DNA from: Candidatus Hydrogenedentota bacterium
GTDB lineage: Bacteria > Hydrogenedentota > Hydrogenedentia > Hydrogenedentales > JAEUWI01
Assembly (NCBI GenBank): GCA_024280935.1
Contig: JAJRPE010000584.1
Coordinates: 1-32,087 of the forward strand
Length of the DNA stretch: 32,087 bases
Reading direction: 5' to 3'
Positions 15,963-28,544 of the stretch are shown piece after piece. Numbering within the stretch: position 1 is the first letter of the stretch; each line of letters opens with the position of its first letter. The notes beneath the pieces were generated by a model, which saw only the letters and a program-made list of their open reading frames with translations, was not told where the DNA came from and searched no databases. Made by a program: the position numbers and the translations under genes.

Positions 15963-17723
15963 TCAGCCCCGGTCCTGCTCGGTGAGTCTTTCCATCTTTG
16001 CGGCGCTGGTGCGCTTGGCTTCGGGGACGAGTTCGCCGAACCAGGCATCGTTCTTTCGGAGCACCTGAACGGCGCGGTGGCAGACTTCGCAGGAGACTTC
16101 GGCCCCCTCAAAGGTGCTCTCGTCGAGCCGGATGAAGGTACTGCAGAAAGGACAGGCGATGCTCTTTTCGGAACTTTTGTGGTAATCCTGCAGGATACGG
16201 TCGATCTTTCCGCTCCGAAAACATCGAATCAGCGCGTCGGCGCATTCGGGATCGAACTGAGTGCCTTTGTTTTCCTCGATAATCTGGATGGCTTTTTCAG
16301 GATCGAGGCCCTTGCGGTAGGGACGGTTGCTGGTGATGGCGTCGAAGGTGTCGCCCACGGCGAGGGCACGGCCCTCAATGGGGATTTCCTCGCCCTTGAG
16401 GCCGTAGGGGTAGCCTTTGCCATCGTAGCGTTCGTGGTGGTAGAGGCAATAGGGTATGAGGGGCTCAAGAAACTTGACATTTTCCATGAGCTGGGCACCC
16501 TTTTCGGGGTGAACCTTGATCTTGTCAAACTCTTCGTCGGTAAGGCGGTCCGGCTTTCTCAGGATAGCGTCATCGACGGCGATTTTGCCCACATCGTGGA
16601 GGACCCCGCCCATGCGAACTTCCTTGAGTTTTTCTTCGGACCAACCCAATTCCCTGGCGACTTCGAGGGTGAAATTGGTGACGCGCCACGTGTGGCCCAC
16701 GGTGTAGTGATCCCGCATTTCGATGGCATTTGCCAACACGATGAGGGTGTCTTCATAGGCTTTTTCCAATTGGCGAACATACTGGGCATTCTTGATGGCC
16801 ACGCCAGAGGGCCCTGAAAGGGCCACCAGAAGTTCGAGATCGCTGTCAACAAAGGCGTTGGTTGTGCCCCGCGTATCGACGTAGATAACGCCGAGCCGTT
16901 CGTCCTGGCAGGCGAGGGGGGCGCACATGGCCGAAGAAATGTTTTGACTGATAATGCTGGCCCCCGCCTCAAAGCGGGAATCGTCGGCCGCGTCGAAAGT
17001 GATAATGGCTTCGCCATGCTCGTAGGCCCGGTTTACAATGGAAGAACTGATCGTAACCTCGGCGTTTTCCGAGCCGGAGCGCACGTATTCTGTAACAAGC
17101 TCGCCGCTTTCAGGGTCATGCAGCAAGATGACACCATTGTGGGCGGGTATGAGTTGAAAAATCTCTTCCATGACCCGCTCGAAGAGTTTGTTCAGATCAC
17201 GCTCGCTGGTAATGATCTCGTTGGCCTTATAGACCGCCCGAAGCCGCTGTTGCGTTTCCGAGAGTATCTTCGAATCATTCGCGGCCCCGACGGGTGCCTG
17301 GAAGAAGGTCTCGAAAACATTGGATGCCTTGGCACCTTCGATGTCACTGCCGGTAGAATCATCGAAGCGAACGCCGCCGCTGCCCTCATCGACCGCTTTC
17401 TGCGCGGCTTCTTGCGCCTCGTCGCCAGAAAGGGCCTCCGATTCGAAGCGAAGCTCCTGGGTGCCCAGATGAAGGAGATCACCGCTGGACAGCTTGTACT
17501 CCAGAATACGGCGCTCACCGACGAAGCTGCCATTGCCACTGCCCAAATCGCGCAGCATCGTGGCCCCGTCTTTTTGCTCTATGACGGCGTGTTGGCGCGA
17601 AATCTGGAGATCTTCCAACTGCAAGTCATTGTCTGGATTTCGACCAATAGACAACTTGGTATTGATGTCGAAGGATTTACCCTGAAGGGGTCCTGTCAGT
17701 ACAACCACCCGTTCTTTTCTCAT
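15963..17723 (-). CDS. FHA-GAF-HD-GYP signalling protein with C-terminal Cys-pair (zinc-ribbon-like) segment
   Basis: FHA: LSIGRNPDNDLQLEDLQISRQHAVI...LGSGNGSFV. GAF-like middle. HD-GYP: HDVGKI and YHHERYDGKGYPYGLKGEEIP. C-terminus CPFC...CEVC. ATG at 17723 preferred (GGGAG upstream); the ORF track uses a TTG at 17771. Confidence 0.9.
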   Translation of the reverse strand: MRKERVVVLTGPLQGKSFDINTKLSIGRNPDNDLQLEDLQISRQHAVIEQKDGATMLRDLGSGNGSFVGERRILEYKLSSGDLLHLGTQELRFESEALSGDEAQEAAQKAVDEGSGGVRFDDSTGSDIEGAKASNVFETFFQAPVGAANDSKILSETQQRLRAVYKANEIITSERDLNKLFERVMEEIFQLIPAHNGVILLHDPESGELVTEYVRSGSENAEVTISSSIVNRAYEHGEAIITFDAADDSRFEAGASIISQNISSAMCAPLACQDERLGVIYVDTRGTTNAFVDSDLELLVALSGPSGVAIKNAQYVRQLEKAYEDTLIVLANAIEMRDHYTVGHTWRVTNFTLEVARELGWSEEKLKEVRMGGVLHDVGKIAVDDAILRKPDRLTDEEFDKIKVHPEKGAQLMENVKFLEPLIPYCLYHHERYDGKGYPYGLKGEEIPIEGRALAVGDTFDAITSNRPYRKGLDPEKAIQIIEENKGTQFDPECADALIRCFRSGKIDRILQDYHKSSEKSIACPFCSTFIRLDESTFEGAEVSCEVCHRAVQVLRKNDAWFGELVPEAKRTSAAKMERLTEQDRG

Positions 17724-18253
17724 GCCATCTAAACTCCCGCCGTGCTTCGGGTTCGCTGCGTCAGTGCTCAATAAAACCTGCTAAGACGGCAGGGCCACCG
17801 CCGGTTGCCACCCCCGCAGCAAAGGGGGTAAACGGGGCCGTGAACACCTGCTCATCAGGCTTATAGCATGACTGAACGTAGAAACCAAGTCAATAGTAAA
17901 GCCTGGCCCTTCGTATCGCCCATCTCATGGAGTCTACGCTATGGCCGACATTCGAAGCGCAGAACTGCGAATTCCGCGAGTAGTTGGTTGACAGCCATGG
18001 TCTATTGGCGTATTATTAGGGGCGCTTAGATTGAAGCGTATTGATCGTTTAACGGGTGTGCCGTTACGTACTATCGGCACCGCCAGTAGTGGTGCAATTG
18101 GCCCAAGTCGGCAAATGGCGAGGTTTGTCTTGACGACGTTTCGATCCGCGTACCACCCAGGCATGAATGCTGGCTCCTTTTCTACCCGAGATTGGACTGG
18201 TGGCGGTCGCCGGGTGGAAATTTGCTAACCAGGCATTGAATTAAGGCAGGCGT

Positions 18254-19279
18254 ATGCGCATGGATGGAACGCAAACCTATTTACGGCAGTTTGGCCTGAC
18301 TGAACAGCCCTTTGCTCCCACAGCGGACCCGGTGTATTTCTATGCGACCGAAGGGCACAAGGAGTGCCTCTATCGCCTTTGGAATACTATCGATGCGTGC
18401 CACGGAATTGCCGTTGTACTGGGAAACTATGGCACCGGGAAGACGACGTTGCTGCGCAAGCTGATGACCGGCATGGCGGCGGATCCAGAGCGCTATATGA
18501 CCGCCGTCATTGGCTCCCCTATTCCTTCCTGGACCAGCTTTGCCCTGCTGGAGAGTATCGTCGCACAATTTGGGTTGCGGCCTGCGGAACAGTCGTTTGT
18601 GGCCTACATGGAGGCCCTCAATCAGCATTTGCTGGAAAACCGCCACCGTGTCTGCACGCTGATTATCGACGATGCGCAAAATCTGAACAAACGCGGCCAG
18701 TTGGAGTTGCTGCGCTTGGTTCAAAATCTGGAAACCCAGCAGCAGAAGTTGCTCAATCTCGTGTTTTTTGCCCAGTTGGAGTGGACACAGGTGCTCCAGG
18801 CCGCACCGAATTTCGAGCAGCGCATTAATCTCACGTACACTTTGGAATCGATCCAATATGAAGAGGCCAGGCAGTTTGTGGAGTTTCGTCTCCGCCAAGC
18901 GGGATCGCAGCCCGATGTGGGGCCCGTATTCGAGGAAGGGGCGCTTCGGGCTATCCACGCCTATGCGGAAGGAAGCCCCCGCGTCATCGTTACGTTGTGC
19001 CGAAACTCACTTTTATTGGCCGCTCAGCTAAAGACTCGGCATATATCGCACGATATAGTAGTACACACGATTGAAAAGACCACGCTGCCGAACCCGGAGA
19101 AACGGGCACGCGTTGCGGCGGTCGTTGGTGCGTTCGTTCGACCACCAGCGCCGGTGACGCCAGCGATGGGCGGTGGGCCACGAGAACGAAATGCGCGTGC
19201 GCAACAGACGCGGGATCAGCGAGCTGCTGATTTACTGTTGCGTTCTTCACGGACGAGACAAGGTCAGGGATCGGGCTGA
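18254..19279 (+). CDS. ExeA/GspA-like AAA ATPase (EPS/PEP-CTERM-locus type)
   Basis: FGLTEQPFAPTADPVYFYATEGHKECLYRL; Walker A GNYGTGKTTLL; Walker B CTLIIDDAQNL; FEQRINLTYTLESIQYEEARQFVEFRLRQAG; SPRVIVTLCRNSLLLA. Confidence 0.88.
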   Translation: MRMDGTQTYLRQFGLTEQPFAPTADPVYFYATEGHKECLYRLWNTIDACHGIAVVLGNYGTGKTTLLRKLMTGMAADPERYMTAVIGSPIPSWTSFALLESIVAQFGLRPAEQSFVAYMEALNQHLLENRHRVCTLIIDDAQNLNKRGQLELLRLVQNLETQQQKLLNLVFFAQLEWTQVLQAAPNFEQRINLTYTLESIQYEEARQFVEFRLRQAGSQPDVGPVFEEGALRAIHAYAEGSPRVIVTLCRNSLLLAAQLKTRHISHDIVVHTIEKTTLPNPEKRARVAAVVGAFVRPPAPVTPAMGGGPRERNARAQQTRDQRAADLLLRSSRTRQGQGSG

Positions 19280-19281
19280 AT

Positions 19282-21216
19282 ATGCCACCAGGTGCCGAAC
19301 AAGAGCAAGAACCCTTCATGGATGGCGGTGATCCCCATGTCCGTCAGCAGTTGGATTCCATTGATGGTGATTTCATGGCGGGCGTGCCCGATGATGATCG
19401 CTTTGGAAGTGGCGTGCCCGATGGGCAACGGGCCAATTCGATTGACTTTATCCAGATGACGGGGCTAACAAGAGCCCCTCTGCACGATTCCTCGCCCGCC
19501 ATCGATTCACTTGGAAACCTTGCTCCCTCTGCCGACCTCAACCCGGCTGCGCCTGTGAGTTTTTATGAGAAGGGTGTGGCTGATGTGGATGATGGCGGCC
19601 CCGGTGGCGCAAGTGGCCTTGCCGATGCGGCGCTGGATTCAAATCTTGTGCCGGATACCGGGTCCGATGCCTTGCATGGAGCCCCGCCATCGCCTTCCGC
19701 AGAAGCGTTTAAGGATATTGTGGCCGGATTGGATTCGGGAAGCATTGCGCCCGAGGCCGCCATCGATTCCGCGTCTGAAGAGGTGGCCGCAGGACTTGAA
19801 GGGGCCACGGAAGGGACGCTGGACGAACGTTCGGCCTCTTCGGACCTTCTGTCCATGCTTGACGCGATTGAAGAGGCTTCGCCTGAACCGCCCGAATCCG
19901 GCGGGGACCAGCAGCGGCAACTGTCCGGATCGGACCCTGTGGAGGCTGCCCCGGCTGTCGATCTTGATGGAACAACGGACGATTGGGATGCCTTGCTTGA
20001 CTCGGTTTCTTCCGATCGTACACAGGCAGAGCCGACGACACCCTCGATGCCGGGCCTCGGTAACGAAGCGCTCGTTGAAGCAGAGCAACTCATGCAAGAG
20101 CTCGGCCAGACCACGGGTGATGCCTTCTCGCCGGACGCTCCGAAATCTGCCGCCCCGCCGAGCCTCTTGCCGACCTACACCACCACCACGCCGACCGCTC
20201 CTGAATTGGATGGGGAGTTGGCCTATAACTATAGCGCGGTGCCCGCACGCCGCCGCTCCAAGCGCCACTCACGCGCCACCCGGCGGAGCAGGAAGGCCAT
20301 TAAGCTTGTTGCTGCGGTGGCAATTCTTGTGGCGTGTGTTGCCGCAGCCTATGTGTATGTAGTGCGTCCCACGCTCGAACAGGCGGAGGATTTGGAAGCA
20401 AAAGCGGAGCGGCTCCTGTCGGAGAACCGTTATGAAGAAGCTTCCAAGGTCTACGCAAAGCTTTCCACTGATCCCGTGCGGGGGGCGGAGGCCCAGTTCC
20501 AGGCAGCCTATGTCTTGACCCTTGAAGCACCGGGTGGGATGGATGCCAAGAGTCAGCGATATCGTTTGGCGTTGACCCGGTTTGCATCATTCATTGAGGC
20601 CAACCCGCAACATCCGAAGCGCACGCGTGCGCAGACCCTGATGGGACGGCTGCACTACGAGCTAGCCGAGTATGACGAGGCCATTTCCATTCTCCGTGAT
20701 CAGGTAAGCCCGCTGGATGATCCGCAGGCGGCCCTGACCATGTTGCGCTATCTGGCGAGGTCCTACAGCCAGAAAGCCGATTATGAGGCGGCCGAAAGCG
20801 CCTTTCTTCAGGCCGCGCTGTTGCCGGGCAATTACAGTGTGGACACCGACTATCGGGAACTTGGCGGGATGTTTCAGACCCGCGCCGACCTCGCGAAGAC
20901 CGACGGAGAGCGTGCTGCGTTCATGAAAACGGCGGTGGAGTATTGGCACAAGGCGATTCAACAGCCTGGTATAGAACCCGGCCAGAAAGCGGCCTTGGAA
21001 GAAAAGTTGGATTGGTTTGTGTTTCAGGATAGCGGGGAGCGCATGAACGCGGTGAAGGGCACGCCTTCAATGGCGGACAAACCCGAATTCGAGATACCGG
21101 CAGTGCCCGTGTCCAGTTCCGAACAGGCTCCCGTTGATGGCGACCACGAACCCGAGCCTGGTGCGGAGTTTCCCACGATTGAGACAACGAATAATTCTGT
21201 GCCCGAGACCGAATAG
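19282..21216 (+). CDS. Bitopic membrane protein: long acidic low-complexity N-terminus, one TM helix, TPR-like C-terminal region
   Basis: Basic patch ARRRSKRHSRATRRSRKAIK before TM LVAAVAILVACVAAAYVYVV; helical repeat region AERLLSENRYEEASKVYAKLSTDP...MGRLHYELAEYDEAISILRDQV...YLARSYSQKADYEAAESAFLQAALLPG. Two-bp gap to the upstream gene. Confidence 0.8.
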   Translation: MPPGAEQEQEPFMDGGDPHVRQQLDSIDGDFMAGVPDDDRFGSGVPDGQRANSIDFIQMTGLTRAPLHDSSPAIDSLGNLAPSADLNPAAPVSFYEKGVADVDDGGPGGASGLADAALDSNLVPDTGSDALHGAPPSPSAEAFKDIVAGLDSGSIAPEAAIDSASEEVAAGLEGATEGTLDERSASSDLLSMLDAIEEASPEPPESGGDQQRQLSGSDPVEAAPAVDLDGTTDDWDALLDSVSSDRTQAEPTTPSMPGLGNEALVEAEQLMQELGQTTGDAFSPDAPKSAAPPSLLPTYTTTTPTAPELDGELAYNYSAVPARRRSKRHSRATRRSRKAIKLVAAVAILVACVAAAYVYVVRPTLEQAEDLEAKAERLLSENRYEEASKVYAKLSTDPVRGAEAQFQAAYVLTLEAPGGMDAKSQRYRLALTRFASFIEANPQHPKRTRAQTLMGRLHYELAEYDEAISILRDQVSPLDDPQAALTMLRYLARSYSQKADYEAAESAFLQAALLPGNYSVDTDYRELGGMFQTRADLAKTDGERAAFMKTAVEYWHKAIQQPGIEPGQKAALEEKLDWFVFQDSGERMNAVKGTPSMADKPEFEIPAVPVSSSEQAPVDGDHEPEPGAEFPTIETTNNSVPETE

Positions 21217-21258: not shown

Positions 21259-22755
21259 GTGGAGTGGAAGATCATGTCAGCCCAGATACGATTATTTGTC
21301 GGCGCGTGCCTCGTAGCGATGCTTATTGCGGCTTCGCCAATGGCCGCCGCCGAGTCGGCGGGAGATGACACCTTGCAGCCGGGCGAACTCGTCTTTGTCA
21401 ACGTGCATCGCCAGCCGGAGCTTTCGACTACGACGCAACTGGACAGCCAGGGCAATGTGGATATGCCGTACATCGGCAACGTGTCCCTCAAGGGGCTGAA
21501 TCTTTCCGACGCGGGCGCCCGGGTTTCCATGGGCCTGAAAAGCATCCTCAAGAATCCGAGGGTTACGATCACGCGCAGTGCGGAAGGAGCTCCCTCCCTG
21601 CCGGGCGGATTCATGCGCACGCAGTCGATGCAAACGCAGGTGGTTTCCTTGAACAACGCCGACGCGGGCACCCTGGAGAAAGCCCTTTCCGGCATGTCGA
21701 CAGCGGGTGGAAACGTAAGCTACGACCCCAATACAAACAGCATGATTCTCACCGACGAGTCGGGCACCTTGCAAAATATGATTTCGGTGATTCGCGAGCT
21801 GGACCAGATGGAATCGCAGATCACGCAAGTGATGATAGAGGCCAAAATAGTCGAAGTTGAAACGGCGGCGGCCAAGGAATTGGGTATCCGCTGGTTTGCC
21901 CAGGGAGACCGTATCGGCACGGGTTACACGCCATCGCCCCGGCAGGATGCCCTGCTCAATTCAATTCGGCAATCGGTGGGGCCGGGTTTCAACGAAACGA
22001 TCACGTCATCGGGCGGACGGGGTGGTGGTCTTGACCGGCGCTTTCTCGGTGACGAAGTATTTGACCGGCGTCTTCAGGTGCCGGTCCAAGTTGCCGCGCC
22101 GGGGCAGATGTTTCTCGGCTATATGAACAAGGGTATTGATTTGGGTGTCATGCTGGATGCACTGGTGGCCGATGACAAAGCCGAATTGCTGGCATCGCCT
22201 TATGTGGGCACGGTGAACCACAAGCCCGCTGTGATTCGGATGACCGAAGAATTTCCCTATACGGAAATAGGGACCGCAGGCTTTTCCTCGGTGCAAAACG
22301 TTCAGTTCCTGGAAATCGGCATTGTGATGGAAGTTATTCCTCATGTACGCCGTGATCCCAATGGGGAACGGTATGTACTGGTGGAATTGAAGCCGGAAGT
22401 TTCTACGGCGGTAGGGGTTTCCAATGGGGTTCCAGTTCGCGCCATACGCAGCAGCAACAGCCAACGCATCGTTCGGGACGGCCAGACCTTGGTCATCGGC
22501 GGTATTGTTATGGCCGACAACCACACGGTCGTGCAGAAATTGCCGGGACTGGGCAACCTTCCCGTATTCGGCAACCTCTTTAAGCACAAGGAACGCAGCC
22601 GAACCAGCCGCGAGCTTATGATATTCGTGACACCCACCATCCACGACAAACCCGAAGACATCCGTTGGGAGCGGAGTTTGGATATGGATGGTTTCGGTCA
22701 CAATGATGCCTTTCTTGCTGCCCTTGAGTCTCGGGCCGAAGTACGGAAGGACTAG
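21259..22755 (+). CDS. Polysaccharide-export (Wza/Poly_export-like) domain fused to a full secretin domain
   Basis: Signal peptide; Poly_export-like 'LQPGELVFVNVHRQPELSTTTQLDSQGNVDMPYIGNVSLKGLNLSDAGARVSMGLKSILKNPRVTI'; secretin N-domain 'VVSLNNADAGTLEKALSGM...NSMILTDESGTLQNMISVIRELDQMESQITQVMIEAKIVEVE'; secretin core 'SNSQRIVRDGQTLVIGGIVMADNHTVVQKLPGLGNLPVFGNLFKHKERSRTSRELMIFVTPTI'. Confidence 0.9.
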   Translation: MEWKIMSAQIRLFVGACLVAMLIAASPMAAAESAGDDTLQPGELVFVNVHRQPELSTTTQLDSQGNVDMPYIGNVSLKGLNLSDAGARVSMGLKSILKNPRVTITRSAEGAPSLPGGFMRTQSMQTQVVSLNNADAGTLEKALSGMSTAGGNVSYDPNTNSMILTDESGTLQNMISVIRELDQMESQITQVMIEAKIVEVETAAAKELGIRWFAQGDRIGTGYTPSPRQDALLNSIRQSVGPGFNETITSSGGRGGGLDRRFLGDEVFDRRLQVPVQVAAPGQMFLGYMNKGIDLGVMLDALVADDKAELLASPYVGTVNHKPAVIRMTEEFPYTEIGTAGFSSVQNVQFLEIGIVMEVIPHVRRDPNGERYVLVELKPEVSTAVGVSNGVPVRAIRSSNSQRIVRDGQTLVIGGIVMADNHTVVQKLPGLGNLPVFGNLFKHKERSRTSRELMIFVTPTIHDKPEDIRWERSLDMDGFGHNDAFLAALESRAEVRKD

Positions 22756-22758
22756 GCC

Positions 22759-25017
22759 ATGTCCAGCATTGATGTGCCGCTCCAGGAAGAGACTACACAG
22801 CAGGGCCAGGGCAACCAGGGTCGTTTTCTGTGGAATGTGGTTTCAGAGCATTGGTTAATGTTGCTCATCGGCACCTTGGTTGGCGCGATAGCTTTTGGGG
22901 GCTACACGTTGCTGGCCCACACGGAGGCCCCCGTGCGCTATGGCACGTCGGCGAAACTGACAATTACCGCAGGGCGCACGGCGGTTGTTCGCTCCCTGAG
23001 AACATCTGGCGCTTCCACATCGCTATATGAGATGACGGCGGGGGATTTGCAAGCGGGCACCAGTCTGAGCGATCTTTCCGAGGAAGTGGCTCGTGGACTT
23101 ATTCAGAAGGACATCGCCGCAGGCGGGCGCTTTGGCAGTGTAGCCACACCGGACGAGTTTCGAAAGCAAGCCAACGAGATTGCAAAAAAAATCACTGTTA
23201 ATGCGCCGGATGAGCGCACCATTGAAATTCGCGTCCAGGGATGCGCCAGGGCGCAGGAAGCGGATGACATTGCCGAGTACGCGACCCGCGCCTTCCTGGA
23301 AATGAACCGCAAGGTTCATCTGGAGAAAGCGAACAAGAATCACGTGGATGCTGTCGCCATCATTCAGTCGCTACGGCAAAAGCTGGCGGAGGCGGAACAG
23401 GCCCGTCTCGCCTTCATGCAAAAGCACGGATTTCGCGCCTACGGAGACCTCGACCAGCAACTTACCAGCAAAGCGGATTCCTTGCGGGAAATAGAGACCG
23501 CCAAGGAGACGGCTCAACAAAAGTTGGCGCAGTTGGACGCGGAGCTGGCGCTGGCTGCGAAACAATTCTCCATGTCGCTGAACCAACCCAGCGACAATAT
23601 GGTAAACGGTCTCTTTTTGGATCTCGACGATCTTCTTGAAGAGAAAATGTCCCTTGCCGCTATTTATCAACCCAGTTGGCCGAGGCTGCTTGAGTTGGAG
23701 GAGGAGATCGCCGAGACGCAGGGACTCATTCTGGAGGCGGAAAAGCAAAAAGCGTCCGGTGTTCCCGGCGGCAGCGATATCTGGACGAAGCGGAAGGAGA
23801 TTTATCGTCAACAAATTGAGCTTCGTCTACAGACGACAAGCTTGGAAATCCGTGAGGCGGCCATCAGGAAAGAACGGGAGGAACTCATCCCCCGGGTCCC
23901 GGAATTGGCGAATCTGAAGCTTGATGCAGACCGACTCCGGCGTGAGGTGGATAATATTGAGCTCCGGCTGAATCAGGCGGCAGACCGGGAAATGGAAATT
24001 CGCGTCGCCATCGAACGGGGACTCGCGTCGGTGGAGCGCAAGGAATCTATTGCCCCGGCGGCGATGGTCCGGATTCCAGATGGCCCACAGGCTTGGATTA
24101 GTTTTGCCATAGGCGGGCTTATAGCGTTCGTGGTCACGTTTGGCTTTGTTATGCTCATGGAGTACAACGATACGTCCATCCGAAGTATTGAAGATGTGAA
24201 CGAATACATCGGACTGGAGGTAATCGGAACCATTCCACGCATGCGTTTCGGGCGCCCCCGGGGCGGGCGACGCCGTCGGGCCACCTATGTCAGCACGGTG
24301 GACGAGGAGCAAATCGACTCTTGTATCGTGACACAGCACGATCCAAAATCGCCTGTTTCCGAGGCGTACCGTACCCTGCGCACAAATTTCCAGTTCGCCA
24401 CGATCAAGAAAAAGCCCCGGACCGTCATGGTAACCAGCGCCGTGCCGGGTGAAGGCAAGACGACGACGGCGGTAAACCTCGCGGTAACGATGGCGGATCG
24501 CGGCATGCGTGTCCTCATTGTTGATACCGACTTGCGCCGTCCGAATGTACACCGGGTGCTTCGCATGGAGCGCGGCCCGGGTCTGGCGGATGTGCTTCGG
24601 GAGGGCTTGGAACCCAAGAGCGTGATTCGGCCAACCCGCATCGAGAACCTCTGGATCATTTCCAGTGGTCGCGTGCCGCCGAACCCGTCGGAGCTTATTG
24701 GATCCGACCACATGGCCCAGCTTATGACGCAACTGGGTGATGAATTTGACTTGGTCATCTGCGATGCGCCTTCGGTGCTTGTGGTGACCGACCCGGTGCT
24801 GCTGGCAACCCACGTGGACACGTGCATGATGGTGGTGTCAACCAACAACGCACGCCGCGAAACGGTTATTCGCGCCAAGAAGCTCTTGAGCACGGCTCAG
24901 GTGGATGTGGCCGGTGTGGTAGTAAATGGCCTTGAAACAACCCGTCGTCACTACTACTACTATTACTACTATTATGACGATGGCTCAACGGGCCGGCGTA
25001 AGTGGTACCACTTCTAG
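22759..25017 (+). CDS. Wzc-like polysaccharide co-polymerase / BY-kinase (tyrosine autokinase)
   Basis: TM HWLMLLIGTLVGAIAFGGYTLLA, coiled-coil periplasmic region, TM AWISFAIGGLIAFVVTFGFVMLM; kinase Walker A SAVPGEGKTTTAVNLA, Walker A' VLIVDTDLRRPNVH, DLVICDAPSVL; C-terminal Tyr cluster HYYYYYYYYDDG. Confidence 0.93.
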   Translation: MSSIDVPLQEETTQQGQGNQGRFLWNVVSEHWLMLLIGTLVGAIAFGGYTLLAHTEAPVRYGTSAKLTITAGRTAVVRSLRTSGASTSLYEMTAGDLQAGTSLSDLSEEVARGLIQKDIAAGGRFGSVATPDEFRKQANEIAKKITVNAPDERTIEIRVQGCARAQEADDIAEYATRAFLEMNRKVHLEKANKNHVDAVAIIQSLRQKLAEAEQARLAFMQKHGFRAYGDLDQQLTSKADSLREIETAKETAQQKLAQLDAELALAAKQFSMSLNQPSDNMVNGLFLDLDDLLEEKMSLAAIYQPSWPRLLELEEEIAETQGLILEAEKQKASGVPGGSDIWTKRKEIYRQQIELRLQTTSLEIREAAIRKEREELIPRVPELANLKLDADRLRREVDNIELRLNQAADREMEIRVAIERGLASVERKESIAPAAMVRIPDGPQAWISFAIGGLIAFVVTFGFVMLMEYNDTSIRSIEDVNEYIGLEVIGTIPRMRFGRPRGGRRRRATYVSTVDEEQIDSCIVTQHDPKSPVSEAYRTLRTNFQFATIKKKPRTVMVTSAVPGEGKTTTAVNLAVTMADRGMRVLIVDTDLRRPNVHRVLRMERGPGLADVLREGLEPKSVIRPTRIENLWIISSGRVPPNPSELIGSDHMAQLMTQLGDEFDLVICDAPSVLVVTDPVLLATHVDTCMMVVSTNNARRETVIRAKKLLSTAQVDVAGVVVNGLETTRRHYYYYYYYYDDGSTGRRKWYHF

Positions 25018-25141
25018 CCGCTGCAAAAGATACTACCCTTCGTCCGGGATCTTGCCCGGAAGAAATGGTGCCTGTGGTGCAGCGAGCGAAACCGCATATA
25101 ATCGTTGTAGCCATGTCGCATGAGCAACCGCCCCGAAGGGG

Positions 25142-25306
25142 CTCAACAGGTTAGCCCAGGGCAACGCCCTGGGTCAGAAGGTAGAAATACTTAACAGCCC
25201 TGAAAGGGCGACACAGTGGCCGTGATGTGCTTCTATTGCGCCCTTTCAGGGCTTTGTTTTTCTAGTTCCTTTTTCCCAGGGCGTTGCCCTGGGCTAACCT
25301 GTTGAG
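25142..25306. repeat. Nested long palindrome (perfect 32-bp arms enclosing perfect 15-bp arms)
   Basis: CTCAACAGGTTAGCCCAGGGCAACGCCCTGGG (25142-25173) is the exact reverse complement of 25275-25306; AGCCCTGAAAGGGCG (25196-25210) of 25239-25253. Each arm also folds locally (CCCAGGGC-AAC-GCCCTGGG; GCCCT-GAA-AGGGC). Confidence 0.9.
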
Positions 25307-25474
25307 GCCTTTCAGGCCGAAAACGACATCGAGAACTCATAATCTATTGTCGATAGCAGGCCCCAAAGGGCCTAAGTAGCCGGGCACCGTCATTTTTTTG
25401 CGCTGACCATTGCGCTCCAACGTGTCTTTTTGTTTTCTCGACCATATCAATAACGGAAGCATTAAAGGAAGCAT

Positions 25475-27001
25475 ATGGCATTTTTCCGATCAGAACGCGG
25501 TATCGGTCGTGGTGAAGTCGCCGAAAGCCAGATGGAAGTTCCGATCTTTGCGGCGTTCATGCTGCTTTCCAGCGTGGCGTTGGTGACGCAGCACCTCGTT
25601 CTGGGTAACAACAATCTGACGGCGGCCCTCTCTGTCAGCATGGTTGTTTTTGGGTTTACGGTGGTGCGGGTGGAAGTGGGGATCTTCGTATTGCTGGTCG
25701 CCATGTTGCTGTCACCGGAAATCGAATTGCGGGCGGCTGCGGGCGGGGACCGCAGCCTCAATATTCGCTATGGCGATCTATTGGTTATCGTTATTTTCCT
25801 GGGTGTCATGGTGAAGCTCGTGTTTGAAGGGCGACTCAGGCTCTGGCAGCCCAGCCCCATCAATGCGGGTATCGCCACCTACTATGCCGTATGCATAATC
25901 TCCACCATCCTGGCCTATGAGCGAGGCTTGCCGGCATGGGATAAACGAACCGCCTTCTTCGTTATGCTGAAGATGTTGGAGTTTTATCTCATCTTTTTCA
26001 TGGTGGCCCATTCCGTGCGCACCTCGAAGGACATACGAATACCCCTGGTATTGTTCTTCATGGTGATGTTGATCGTAAGTTGCTATGGCATCTATTCCAT
26101 CGGCACGACCCCCCGGGTGAGTGCGCCCTTTGAGAAAGGGGGCACCGAACCCAACACCTTGGGTGGATATTTGGTCATATGTCTTTGCGTGGCCTTGGGA
26201 CTGATGCTGCAGGCGCGCCGATTCCGCATGAAGTTGCTCTTTTTTGCCATTATTTTAACTGGATTTATTCCTCTGCTATACACCCTTTCCCGGGCATCCT
26301 ATATGGCGCTGCTGGTGGGATTCACCGTAATCGCGCTCATGAGCCGTAAGTATTTTATCCTGGTGGCGCTGGCGTTGGTCTTGCTCTTCTCGACACTCAT
26401 TATGCCCGAGGCCGTGATTGAGCGCGTGGCATTCACAATTCAGGAAGAGGACGGTCGCGATCTGGTGGTCGCGGGGCGCGATTTGGGCGTGAACGTGGAT
26501 AAATCGACCTACGAGCGGATACATGTATGGCGAAAGGTGGGGTTTATCCTCAGCCTTGGCCCGCAGTTCTTATTCTTCGGCGGGGGGATATCCTGGGAAT
26601 CGGTGCTGGACAGCCAATACGCGCGCGTGCTGCTGGAAACCGGCATCATGGGGTTTATGGCATTCTTTTTCCTCCAGATTCAGGTGCTGAAAACGACCCG
26701 GCAGGCCTATCGCTGGACCGAGAACTGGATGGCCCGTGGTATTGCGCTGGGAATGTTCGGCGCGACTATGGCGCTTGTTGTTCACTCCTTTGGGACGATA
26801 TCATTCCTGATCGTCCGAATCATGGAACCCTATTGGTTTCTTATCGCGCTCACGGTGTCGATACGAAACGAGGCACTTTTTTTGCATCGGCAGCGCTATC
26901 TGGCGCAAAAGAAGACCCGAGTCGCGGCCCGGAAAGCGCTGCAGCCTGGTGACGAGGCAGCCCAAGGTGGCGTGGAGGGCGGCATGCCCGCTGTGACCTA
27001 G
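25475..27001 (+). CDS. O-antigen ligase/polymerase-family (Wzy/WaaL-like) membrane protein
   Basis: Multiple TM segments; 'TEPNTLGGYLVICLCVALGLML', 'FIPLLYTLSRASYMALLVGFTVIALMSRK', 'LLETGIMGFMAFFFLQIQVL' typical of the O-antigen ligase domain. Confidence 0.82.
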   Translation: MAFFRSERGIGRGEVAESQMEVPIFAAFMLLSSVALVTQHLVLGNNNLTAALSVSMVVFGFTVVRVEVGIFVLLVAMLLSPEIELRAAAGGDRSLNIRYGDLLVIVIFLGVMVKLVFEGRLRLWQPSPINAGIATYYAVCIISTILAYERGLPAWDKRTAFFVMLKMLEFYLIFFMVAHSVRTSKDIRIPLVLFFMVMLIVSCYGIYSIGTTPRVSAPFEKGGTEPNTLGGYLVICLCVALGLMLQARRFRMKLLFFAIILTGFIPLLYTLSRASYMALLVGFTVIALMSRKYFILVALALVLLFSTLIMPEAVIERVAFTIQEEDGRDLVVAGRDLGVNVDKSTYERIHVWRKVGFILSLGPQFLFFGGGISWESVLDSQYARVLLETGIMGFMAFFFLQIQVLKTTRQAYRWTENWMARGIALGMFGATMALVVHSFGTISFLIVRIMEPYWFLIALTVSIRNEALFLHRQRYLAQKKTRVAARKALQPGDEAAQGGVEGGMPAVT

Positions 27002-27035: not shown

Positions 27036-28544
27036 CTAGTGAGCGGTGACCATGCTCTCAAGCCGTGGAACAGCGTAGGTCCCCATGCGGATCTGGTCGA
27101 ACATACTCGCATCTGTCGAATACTCCTGCGCGTGTTCCAAGTCGATCATACGCTGCGTAAATAAATCGTACAGGTAGTGCTCGAAGAGGAAGGAGTGGGA
27201 CACGGTCTGCTGCATGCCGATGCGTATAGAATCGGTGCTGCCTTCCATGACCCCGTCCGCAATGGCTTTTATGTCGTTGAGCATCATCTCCAGGGCGGGT
27301 ATGCGGCCCCCACCAATCTTCGGGACGAGGCGCTGGCAGATGACGCACTGGAGGCAATCCCGCAATTGCAGCTTTACGAGATCCCGTTCCACGGGGTCGA
27401 AGAAGCTGATAACGCGGTTGACGACTTCGGCGGCCGTGTTGGCGTGGAGGGTACTGATCACCAGGTGCCCCGTGGCCGCAGCGTTGATGGCCGAGCGAAT
27501 GGTATCCGGGTCGCGCATTTCACCGATGAGAATGACATCGGGATCGTGGCGCAACGCGCCCGTGACCGCGTCTCCAAATGATCGTACGTCCATACCCAGA
27601 TTGCGCTGGGATACGATGGATTTTTTGTTGATGTGGACGAACTCAATGGGGTTTTCAATGGTGAGGATATGGCTTGAACGGGTCGAGTTGATCCAGTCGA
27701 TCAGTGCGGCCACCGTGGTGGTCTTTCCGCTGCCCGTCATGCCCGTAACAAGAAGTAGGCCCCGGTGCAACTCGGCCAGTTTGACCATGGTGTCTTTTGG
27801 CACATGAAGGTCTTCAAAACTTGGGATAGTCTCGGGGAGAAATCGGAAGGTGCAGTGGGGCGCGCCTGATTTCATGAAGGCGGAAACGCGCGAATAGCCG
27901 AGTCCCGCTTGGTGGTAATTGAAGCTGGTTTGCTTATCCTCCTGAAACTCCTCCCACGCGCTGTCCAGGCAAACTTCTTCGATGAGGGCCATTATCTGGA
28001 CGGCAGACAGGGGGCCAAGCAATTCGGAAGGGCGGGTTTCGCCATCGATGCGAAATACCGGGCTGACACCTGGGGAAAGGTGTACGTCGCTCGCCTTGTA
28101 CTGGACCATGGCTTTGAACAGCAGTTCCACGCTGATGTGATCGATGCTGTACTTGCCGCCTTCGGCACGCCACACTTCCGGGAGGGTCACGGAGGCGGAA
28201 AAGGCGTCGACCGCTTTCAGGGCCTTGTTAACAGAGGCGGCGTCCTTCGGCGCGAAGGTGAAGCGCGCAACGCCATTTTCTTCCCGGCGCACGCTACAGT
28301 GTGGCGCGAGTTCTTCCGCTTTGGCAAGCAGCGCCGCAAGGTCGGGCCAGTCCTCTGGAAGGTTGACGACGAAGTGTGCAAATGGCGCGTCGAAATCAGC
28401 ACGCTCGGCCTCGAAAGAGAATCCGCCGCTCCAGGCATGTATGCGCCGCGGAATGCCTTCGGTTCTGAGAAGGTGCTTTTCCAGAAGACCGATTACGGAG
28501 CGGAGCGAGCACTCGGCTCCCGTACCCATTAAGAAGACTGCCAC
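27036..28544 (-). CDS. PilT/GspE-family ATPase with ~150-aa N-terminal extension
   Basis: YKASDVHLSPGVSPVFRIDGE, Walker A GMTGSGKTTTVAALIDWIN, ILTIENPIEFVH, LRHDPDVILIGEMRDPDTIRSAINAAATGHLVISTLHANTAAEVVNRVISFF. GTG start with AAGGAGGT upstream. Confidence 0.92.
   Translation of the reverse strand: MAVFLMGTGAECSLRSVIGLLEKHLLRTEGIPRRIHAWSGGFSFEAERADFDAPFAHFVVNLPEDWPDLAALLAKAEELAPHCSVRREENGVARFTFAPKDAASVNKALKAVDAFSASVTLPEVWRAEGGKYSIDHISVELLFKAMVQYKASDVHLSPGVSPVFRIDGETRPSELLGPLSAVQIMALIEEVCLDSAWEEFQEDKQTSFNYHQAGLGYSRVSAFMKSGAPHCTFRFLPETIPSFEDLHVPKDTMVKLAELHRGLLLVTGMTGSGKTTTVAALIDWINSTRSSHILTIENPIEFVHINKKSIVSQRNLGMDVRSFGDAVTGALRHDPDVILIGEMRDPDTIRSAINAAATGHLVISTLHANTAAEVVNRVISFFDPVERDLVKLQLRDCLQCVICQRLVPKIGGGRIPALEMMLNDIKAIADGVMEGSTDSIRIGMQQTVSHSFLFEHYLYDLFTQRMIDLEHAQEYSTDASMFDQIRMGTYAVPRLESMVTAH

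Follow-up and report, generated by a model that had tools for sequence, protein, structure and literature searches.

A candidate one-piece OPX/secretin translocon for polysaccharide in Candidatus Hydrogenedentota

A gene in a 32,087-nt contig of a Candidatus Hydrogenedentota bacterium (JAJRPE010000584.1, analysed over its whole length and called the window here) encodes a protein in which a Poly_export domain is joined to a secretin. We consider it probable, at roughly 0.72, that this fusion is a one-piece OPX/secretin outer-membrane translocon for a Wzx/Wzy-type polysaccharide. In the proposed mechanism the secretin domain would oligomerise in the outer membrane as a gated beta-barrel, and the ring of OPX D1 (Poly_export) domains, at the STN/N0 slot, would face the inner membrane and dock the helical arms of a Wzc-like co-polymerase. 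Polymer made by a Wzy-like protein would then leave the Wzc arms, cross the OPX ring and the N1 ring, and reach the surface by way of the secretin gate. An AAA ATPase and a membrane TPR protein may assist secretin assembly or insertion, by analogy with ExeA and with TPR pilotins. We infer the polysaccharide cargo, the docking, the outer-membrane pore and the roles of the AAA and TPR proteins from the domains, the predicted folds of the parts, the operon, the co-occurrence of its genes and a single clade of fusion secretins.

This reading is favoured by domains that score over their cut-offs, a conserved operon, conservation of both halves of the protein, and secretin and WzaB/Wza D1 folds in one model. 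It is also favoured by the role of D1 as the Wzc-docking domain in E. coli, with the Glu aligned to E102 kept, by a neighbouring kinase with Wzc fold, arm and tail, by the co-occurrence of fusion, kinase and Wzy-like gene including their joint absence from one locus, and by the presence of separate secretins in pilus and T2SS-like loci. A symmetry mismatch with the co-polymerase, the change of D99 to Arg, the lack of SLBB, the occurrence of the AAA ATPase also without the fusion and the modest full-length model count against it, as does the lack of an identified glycosyltransferase or flippase next to the operon. With slightly less confidence, we also believe that this single-chain OPX/secretin hybrid represents a new class of outer-membrane translocon for polysaccharide, that polysaccharide is a new class of secretin cargo and that the N0 slot is exchangeable for another docking module. 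If so, secretins, which carry proteins, pili and phage, would gain polysaccharide as a cargo, and they would be specialised by exchange of the N-terminal docking module. No published description of a Poly_export-secretin fusion was found in a search of the main texts of openly accessible papers, and we know of no cultured host of the fusion.

Domains and predicted structure of the fusion

The ORF at 21259-22755 (+) reads as 498 aa from a GTG at 21259. The ATG at 21274, about 8 nt behind a GGAG, is the likelier start (21274..22755, 493 aa); residue numbers below refer to the 498-aa form. The N-terminus has a hydrophobic signal-like stretch and no lipobox cysteine. Pfam placed Poly_export (PF02563; OPX D1/PES) at residues 34-105 (21358..21573; E 2.9e-14, 53.5 bits against a cut-off of 28), Secretin_N, a periplasmic ring domain of N1 type with GspD matches, at residues 126-187 (21634..21819; E 4.8e-12, 46.4 bits against 28.2) and the Secretin C-domain (PF00263), with predicted long beta-hairpins and a VPGLGxxPxxGNLF motif, at residues 301-461 (22159..22641; E 1.3e-34, 119.7 bits against 27.5). 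The initial annotation had read all three domains in this one ORF and had staked its interpretation on a Poly_export match at about residues 35-105; the match was found there, well over the cut-off, and the predicted fold agrees with it. No match to SLBB, Wza_C, GfcC, STN or GspD-N0 was obtained in the fusion with Pfam up to E = 1. Among NCBIfam models, PilQ (the best match) and GspD aligned over residues 120-469 and the EpsE/EpsY/XrtA export protein models over residues 38-107, all below their equivalog cut-offs. The C-terminal tail (22642..22752) closes with ExR[KR]x in 20 of the 22 aligned sequences, and from its sequence this could be a pilotin- or partner-binding end.

The structure of the fusion was predicted with AlphaFold2 on the orthologue alignment. 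The full-length model was modest (pLDDT 66.7, pTM 0.39); in it D1 and N1 were confident and the barrel had long hairpins. Foldseek matched it to solved secretins with E values down to 8e-16, including 13-, 14- and 15-mers, and D1 of the same model was separately matched to WzaB (9n9a; 1.0 Å over 71 columns) and also to Wza and Wza-Wzc chains. The orthologue profile of the Poly_export domain likewise found WzaB (2.7e-11) and Wza (2e-8). The possibility that Poly_export is here a diverged STN/N0 domain was rejected on this fit to WzaB together with the lack of STN/N0 matches up to E = 1.

Two large OPX surveys classify these proteins by SLBB, Wza_C, GfcC or coupled barrels, and secretins go unmentioned in the parts consulted (PMC9601211, PMC9603273). 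In the three OPX classes at least one SLBB follows Poly_export, and a Wza_C helix or GfcC belongs to classes 1 and 2 (PMC9603273). Like E. coli Wza and the class-3 OPX proteins of M. xanthus (WzaB/EpsY), the fusion has a Poly_export D1 by both sequence and fold, over the cut-off, and has genes for a Wzc-like co-polymerase and a Wzy-like protein as neighbours; unlike them, it has no SLBB, Wza_C helix or GfcC and carries a C-terminal secretin instead. SLBB is presumed to be where OPX proteins contact the sugar.

With the composite translocons EpsY-EpsX and WzaX-WzpX (PMC9601211, PMC9603273), the fusion shares a periplasmic OPX D1 and an expected beta-barrel exit, but it is one polypeptide, with a predicted multimeric gated secretin in place of an 18-stranded single-chain porin. 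Nearly half of OPX proteins are reported to have no membrane-spanning part, so that outer-membrane crossing by most OPX systems is an open question (PMC9603273). The presence of docking module and barrel in a single polypeptide opens the concept of an OPX ring plus beta-barrel to a direct test. It could also be that the secretin forms only a wide outer-membrane ring and that the polymer leaves through a separate beta-barrel or an OPX protein encoded elsewhere, comparable to the Wzp/EpsX partners of class-3 OPX. We find this improbable. Many OPX systems do use a separate barrel (PMC9601211, PMC9603273), and the same genome encodes two ordinary Poly_export+SLBB proteins; however, these have kinase-like or Wzc-like genes of their own adjoining them, and the operon of the fusion contains no other conserved gene that could be an outer-membrane barrel. 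In one ordinary OPX locus, L146:9501-12578, a Wzc-like kinase comes after the Poly_export+SLBB protein.

The operon and its partner genes

The gene order AAA ATPase, TPR protein, fusion, BY-kinase and Wzy-like protein, all on the forward strand of the window, is kept in the sampled relatives with long-enough contigs. The conserved first gene (18254..19279) encodes a soluble ATPase of ExeA/XrtA-associated type (PF13401; TIGR03015 below cut-off). The second (19282..21216), a conserved neighbour of the fusion that is yet retained in some fusion-less genomes, encodes a membrane-anchored protein with an acidic N-terminal region, a TM segment at about residues 336-354 and a C-terminal TPR part; by analogy it is a possible secretin-assembly or pilotin-like partner.

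The Wzc-like BY-kinase/polysaccharide co-polymerase (22759..25017) begins after a gap of 3 bp from the fusion. It scored 177.5 bits with TIGR01007, over the cut-off, its best fold match was Wzc (Foldseek, E 8.4e-26), and it has two TM helices, a Walker A motif and a tail of eight tyrosines, invariant in 13 sequences; thus the kinase domain, Wzc fold and tyrosine-rich tail of a BY-kinase/PCP-2a were all found. The next gene (25475..27001) encodes a polytopic membrane protein with about 12 hydrophobic stretches, which matched PF04932 with 20.9 bits, under the curated cut-off of 31.7, and the O-glycosylation ligase model TIGR03097, also below cut-off. It is probably a polymerase or ligase, and its sequence allows no finer family call than the Wzy/WaaL superfamily. 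Both neighbours had been named in the initial annotation: the BY-kinase stands, directly adjoining the fusion, and the Wzy-like protein is indeed encoded next, at superfamily level only.

As in XrtA/PEP-CTERM EPS clusters, genes for an AAA ATPase, a tyrosine autokinase, an OPX and a ligase-like protein are grouped. The difference from those clusters is that the OPX is joined to a secretin and that the matches to XrtA-system models all lie below cut-off (153 of 324.5 bits for TIGR03015, 155 of 231 for TIGR03018 and 27 of 180 for TIGR03027).

Between the kinase and Wzy-like genes, at 25129-25319, lies an inverted repeat of 45 nt (91%, arms 101 nt apart), with a perfect 15-nt inverted repeat nested inside it. 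Further copies of its core, CCCAGGGCGTTGCCCTGGGCT, occur elsewhere in the genome (L141 and L145), and the gap between the two genes is shorter in close relatives; from its sequence we take the element to be a dispersed palindromic repeat. The cluster is flanked in many carriers by genes for an FHA-GAF-HD protein (15963-17771, -) and a PilT-family ATPase (27036-28544, -), and one or the other is still found beside the ATPase gene in several fusion-less genomes.

Docking of D1 to the kinase

In the structure of the E. coli K-12 Wza-Wzc complex (2026), which is C8, the Wzc forearm binds Wza D1, the Poly_export domain; deletion of D1 abolishes the association with Wzc, and D99-K332 and E102-H338 are among the residue pairs at the interface (PMC12881504). 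The earlier suggestion that the Wza domain of the fusion would dock the Wzc-like co-polymerase is, by analogy, in agreement with this. We infer that D1 of the fusion docks the adjacent kinase and that the secretin serves as the exit.

A profile match to Wza chain 9r60 set domain position 5 at residue 86 and so D99 and E102 at positions 18 and 21. Glu was found at the E102 position in 21 of 22 sequences, and Arg at the D99 position in 20 of 22. Given that E102 is kept and D99 reversed to Arg, the contacts of D1 with the kinase must differ from those of Wza with Wzc if docking is retained. The profile alignment of the kinase to Wzc begins only at residue 349, and the forearm-tip residues of Wzc are not mappable by profile. 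In the predicted model of the kinase, two long helices of the periplasmic arm are joined by a turn at residues 303-307 (YQPSW), and this turn is a plausible docking tip. Since secretins are 12-16-mers and Wza and Wzc octamers, one-to-one docking of the secretin on an octameric Wzc fails unless the stoichiometry is changed, and the coupling of a 12-16-fold gate to an octameric co-polymerase is a structural puzzle raised by the fusion, one that the initial annotation had not brought up.

Linkage of the fusion with the kinase and Wzy-like gene

Among 68 Candidatus Hydrogenedentota genomes, the Wzy-like gene was present in exactly the same 28 as the fusion, and the N-terminal two-thirds of the BY-kinase in 26 of these 28 carriers and in no genome among the remaining 40; no probability is attached to these co-occurrence counts, the genomes being non-independent through shared ancestry. 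In G050 the fusion match lies at a contig end. In G026 the kinase at the locus is in two pieces; there, at L056:5938-9178, the fusion also matches in two pieces, with one in-frame TGA, and the broken genes are either pseudogenes or assembly errors. The ATPase is more widely distributed than the fusion (38 genomes, 12 of them without it), and this weakened the idea that the AAA and TPR proteins are obligate partners of the fusion. In G003 (L168:6599-10801) PilT comes immediately after the ATPase and TPR genes, and the other three genes (fusion, kinase, Wzy-like) are absent together, a natural absence of this block. Apparently, from these counts and from G003, the fusion goes with the kinase and Wzy-like gene and not with PilT or the ATPase alone.

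These observations bear on whether the fusion could be a protein-exporting or pilus secretin, with N0 replaced by Poly_export for another reason such as anchoring to a kinase-regulated platform; the cargo would then be a protein, which the Wzy/WaaL-like enzyme perhaps glycosylates. In favour of this, the substrates of other secretins are proteins, pili or phage, no NCBIfam model matches the fusion better than PilQ, a PilT-like ATPase is encoded downstream on the opposite strand in many carriers, and the Wzy-like gene matches an O-glycosylation ligase model, if below cut-off. However, PilMNOP, prepilin and T2SS genes were not found in the operon, G003 retains PilT without the other three genes, and the fusion tracks the kinase and the Wzy-like gene. 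Moreover, the genome has other secretins elsewhere, in loci that also encode PilM/PilO or T2SS L/M proteins. We therefore regard protein export as unlikely, and a role as the housekeeping pilus or T2SS secretin was rejected, those loci being occupied by the other secretins; the pilus secretin is a different protein, and the fusion is one of several OPX proteins of the genome. The fusion resembles PilQ and GspD in its N1-type and complete secretin domains and differs from them in having Poly_export for STN/N0, a clade of its own on a long stem, and Wzc-like and Wzy-like partner genes versus PilMNO/PilB or Gsp genes. The polysaccharide assignment of the initial annotation is strengthened by the linkage with Wzc-like and Wzy-like genes and by the separate PilM/PilO-type and T2SS-like secretins; the polysaccharide would leave through a putative secretin pore.

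Distribution and phylogeny of the fusion

The fusion is spread over 21 of 44 Hydrogenedentota genera. It is intact in 22 aligned sequences (the window and 21 relatives), and both domains and the linker contain invariant residues. An assembly or frameshift artefact was rejected on the 21 intact relatives in other MAGs. That the fusion is degenerate or accidental, with no special function, is hardly credible: nothing specific speaks for it beyond the confinement of the fusion so far to one phylum, and it is contradicted by conservation across the 21 genera, where many residues of each domain are invariant.

In a quick tree, which includes long branches, the secretin domains of the fusions formed a single clade with full support on a long stem (1.18), to which neither the 46 secretins of other phyla nor the other secretins of the same genome belonged. 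The survey of the architecture that had been proposed at the outset thus returned a single clade, found in many genera and conserved in both domains. STN was present in 41 and N0 in 38 of the 46 secretins, and none was listed with Poly_export. Judging from domain order, Poly_export occupies in the fusion the slot of the usual N-terminal docking domain (STN/N0) of secretins.

No second case was found in about 1,115 genomes from four further phyla and ten single genomes, where the Planctomycetota search used one query sequence and the Myxococcota search a strict cut-off, among the candidates listed, so that absence outside Hydrogenedentota is unproven. Four matches spanning or nearly spanning the junction were checked and discarded, three being ordinary STN/N0 secretins and one an ordinary OPX. 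Short Omnitrophota secretins of about 450 aa (L079, L093 and similar) formed a well-supported clade of their own, and the one scanned in full, L079, showed an STN-N1-secretin architecture.
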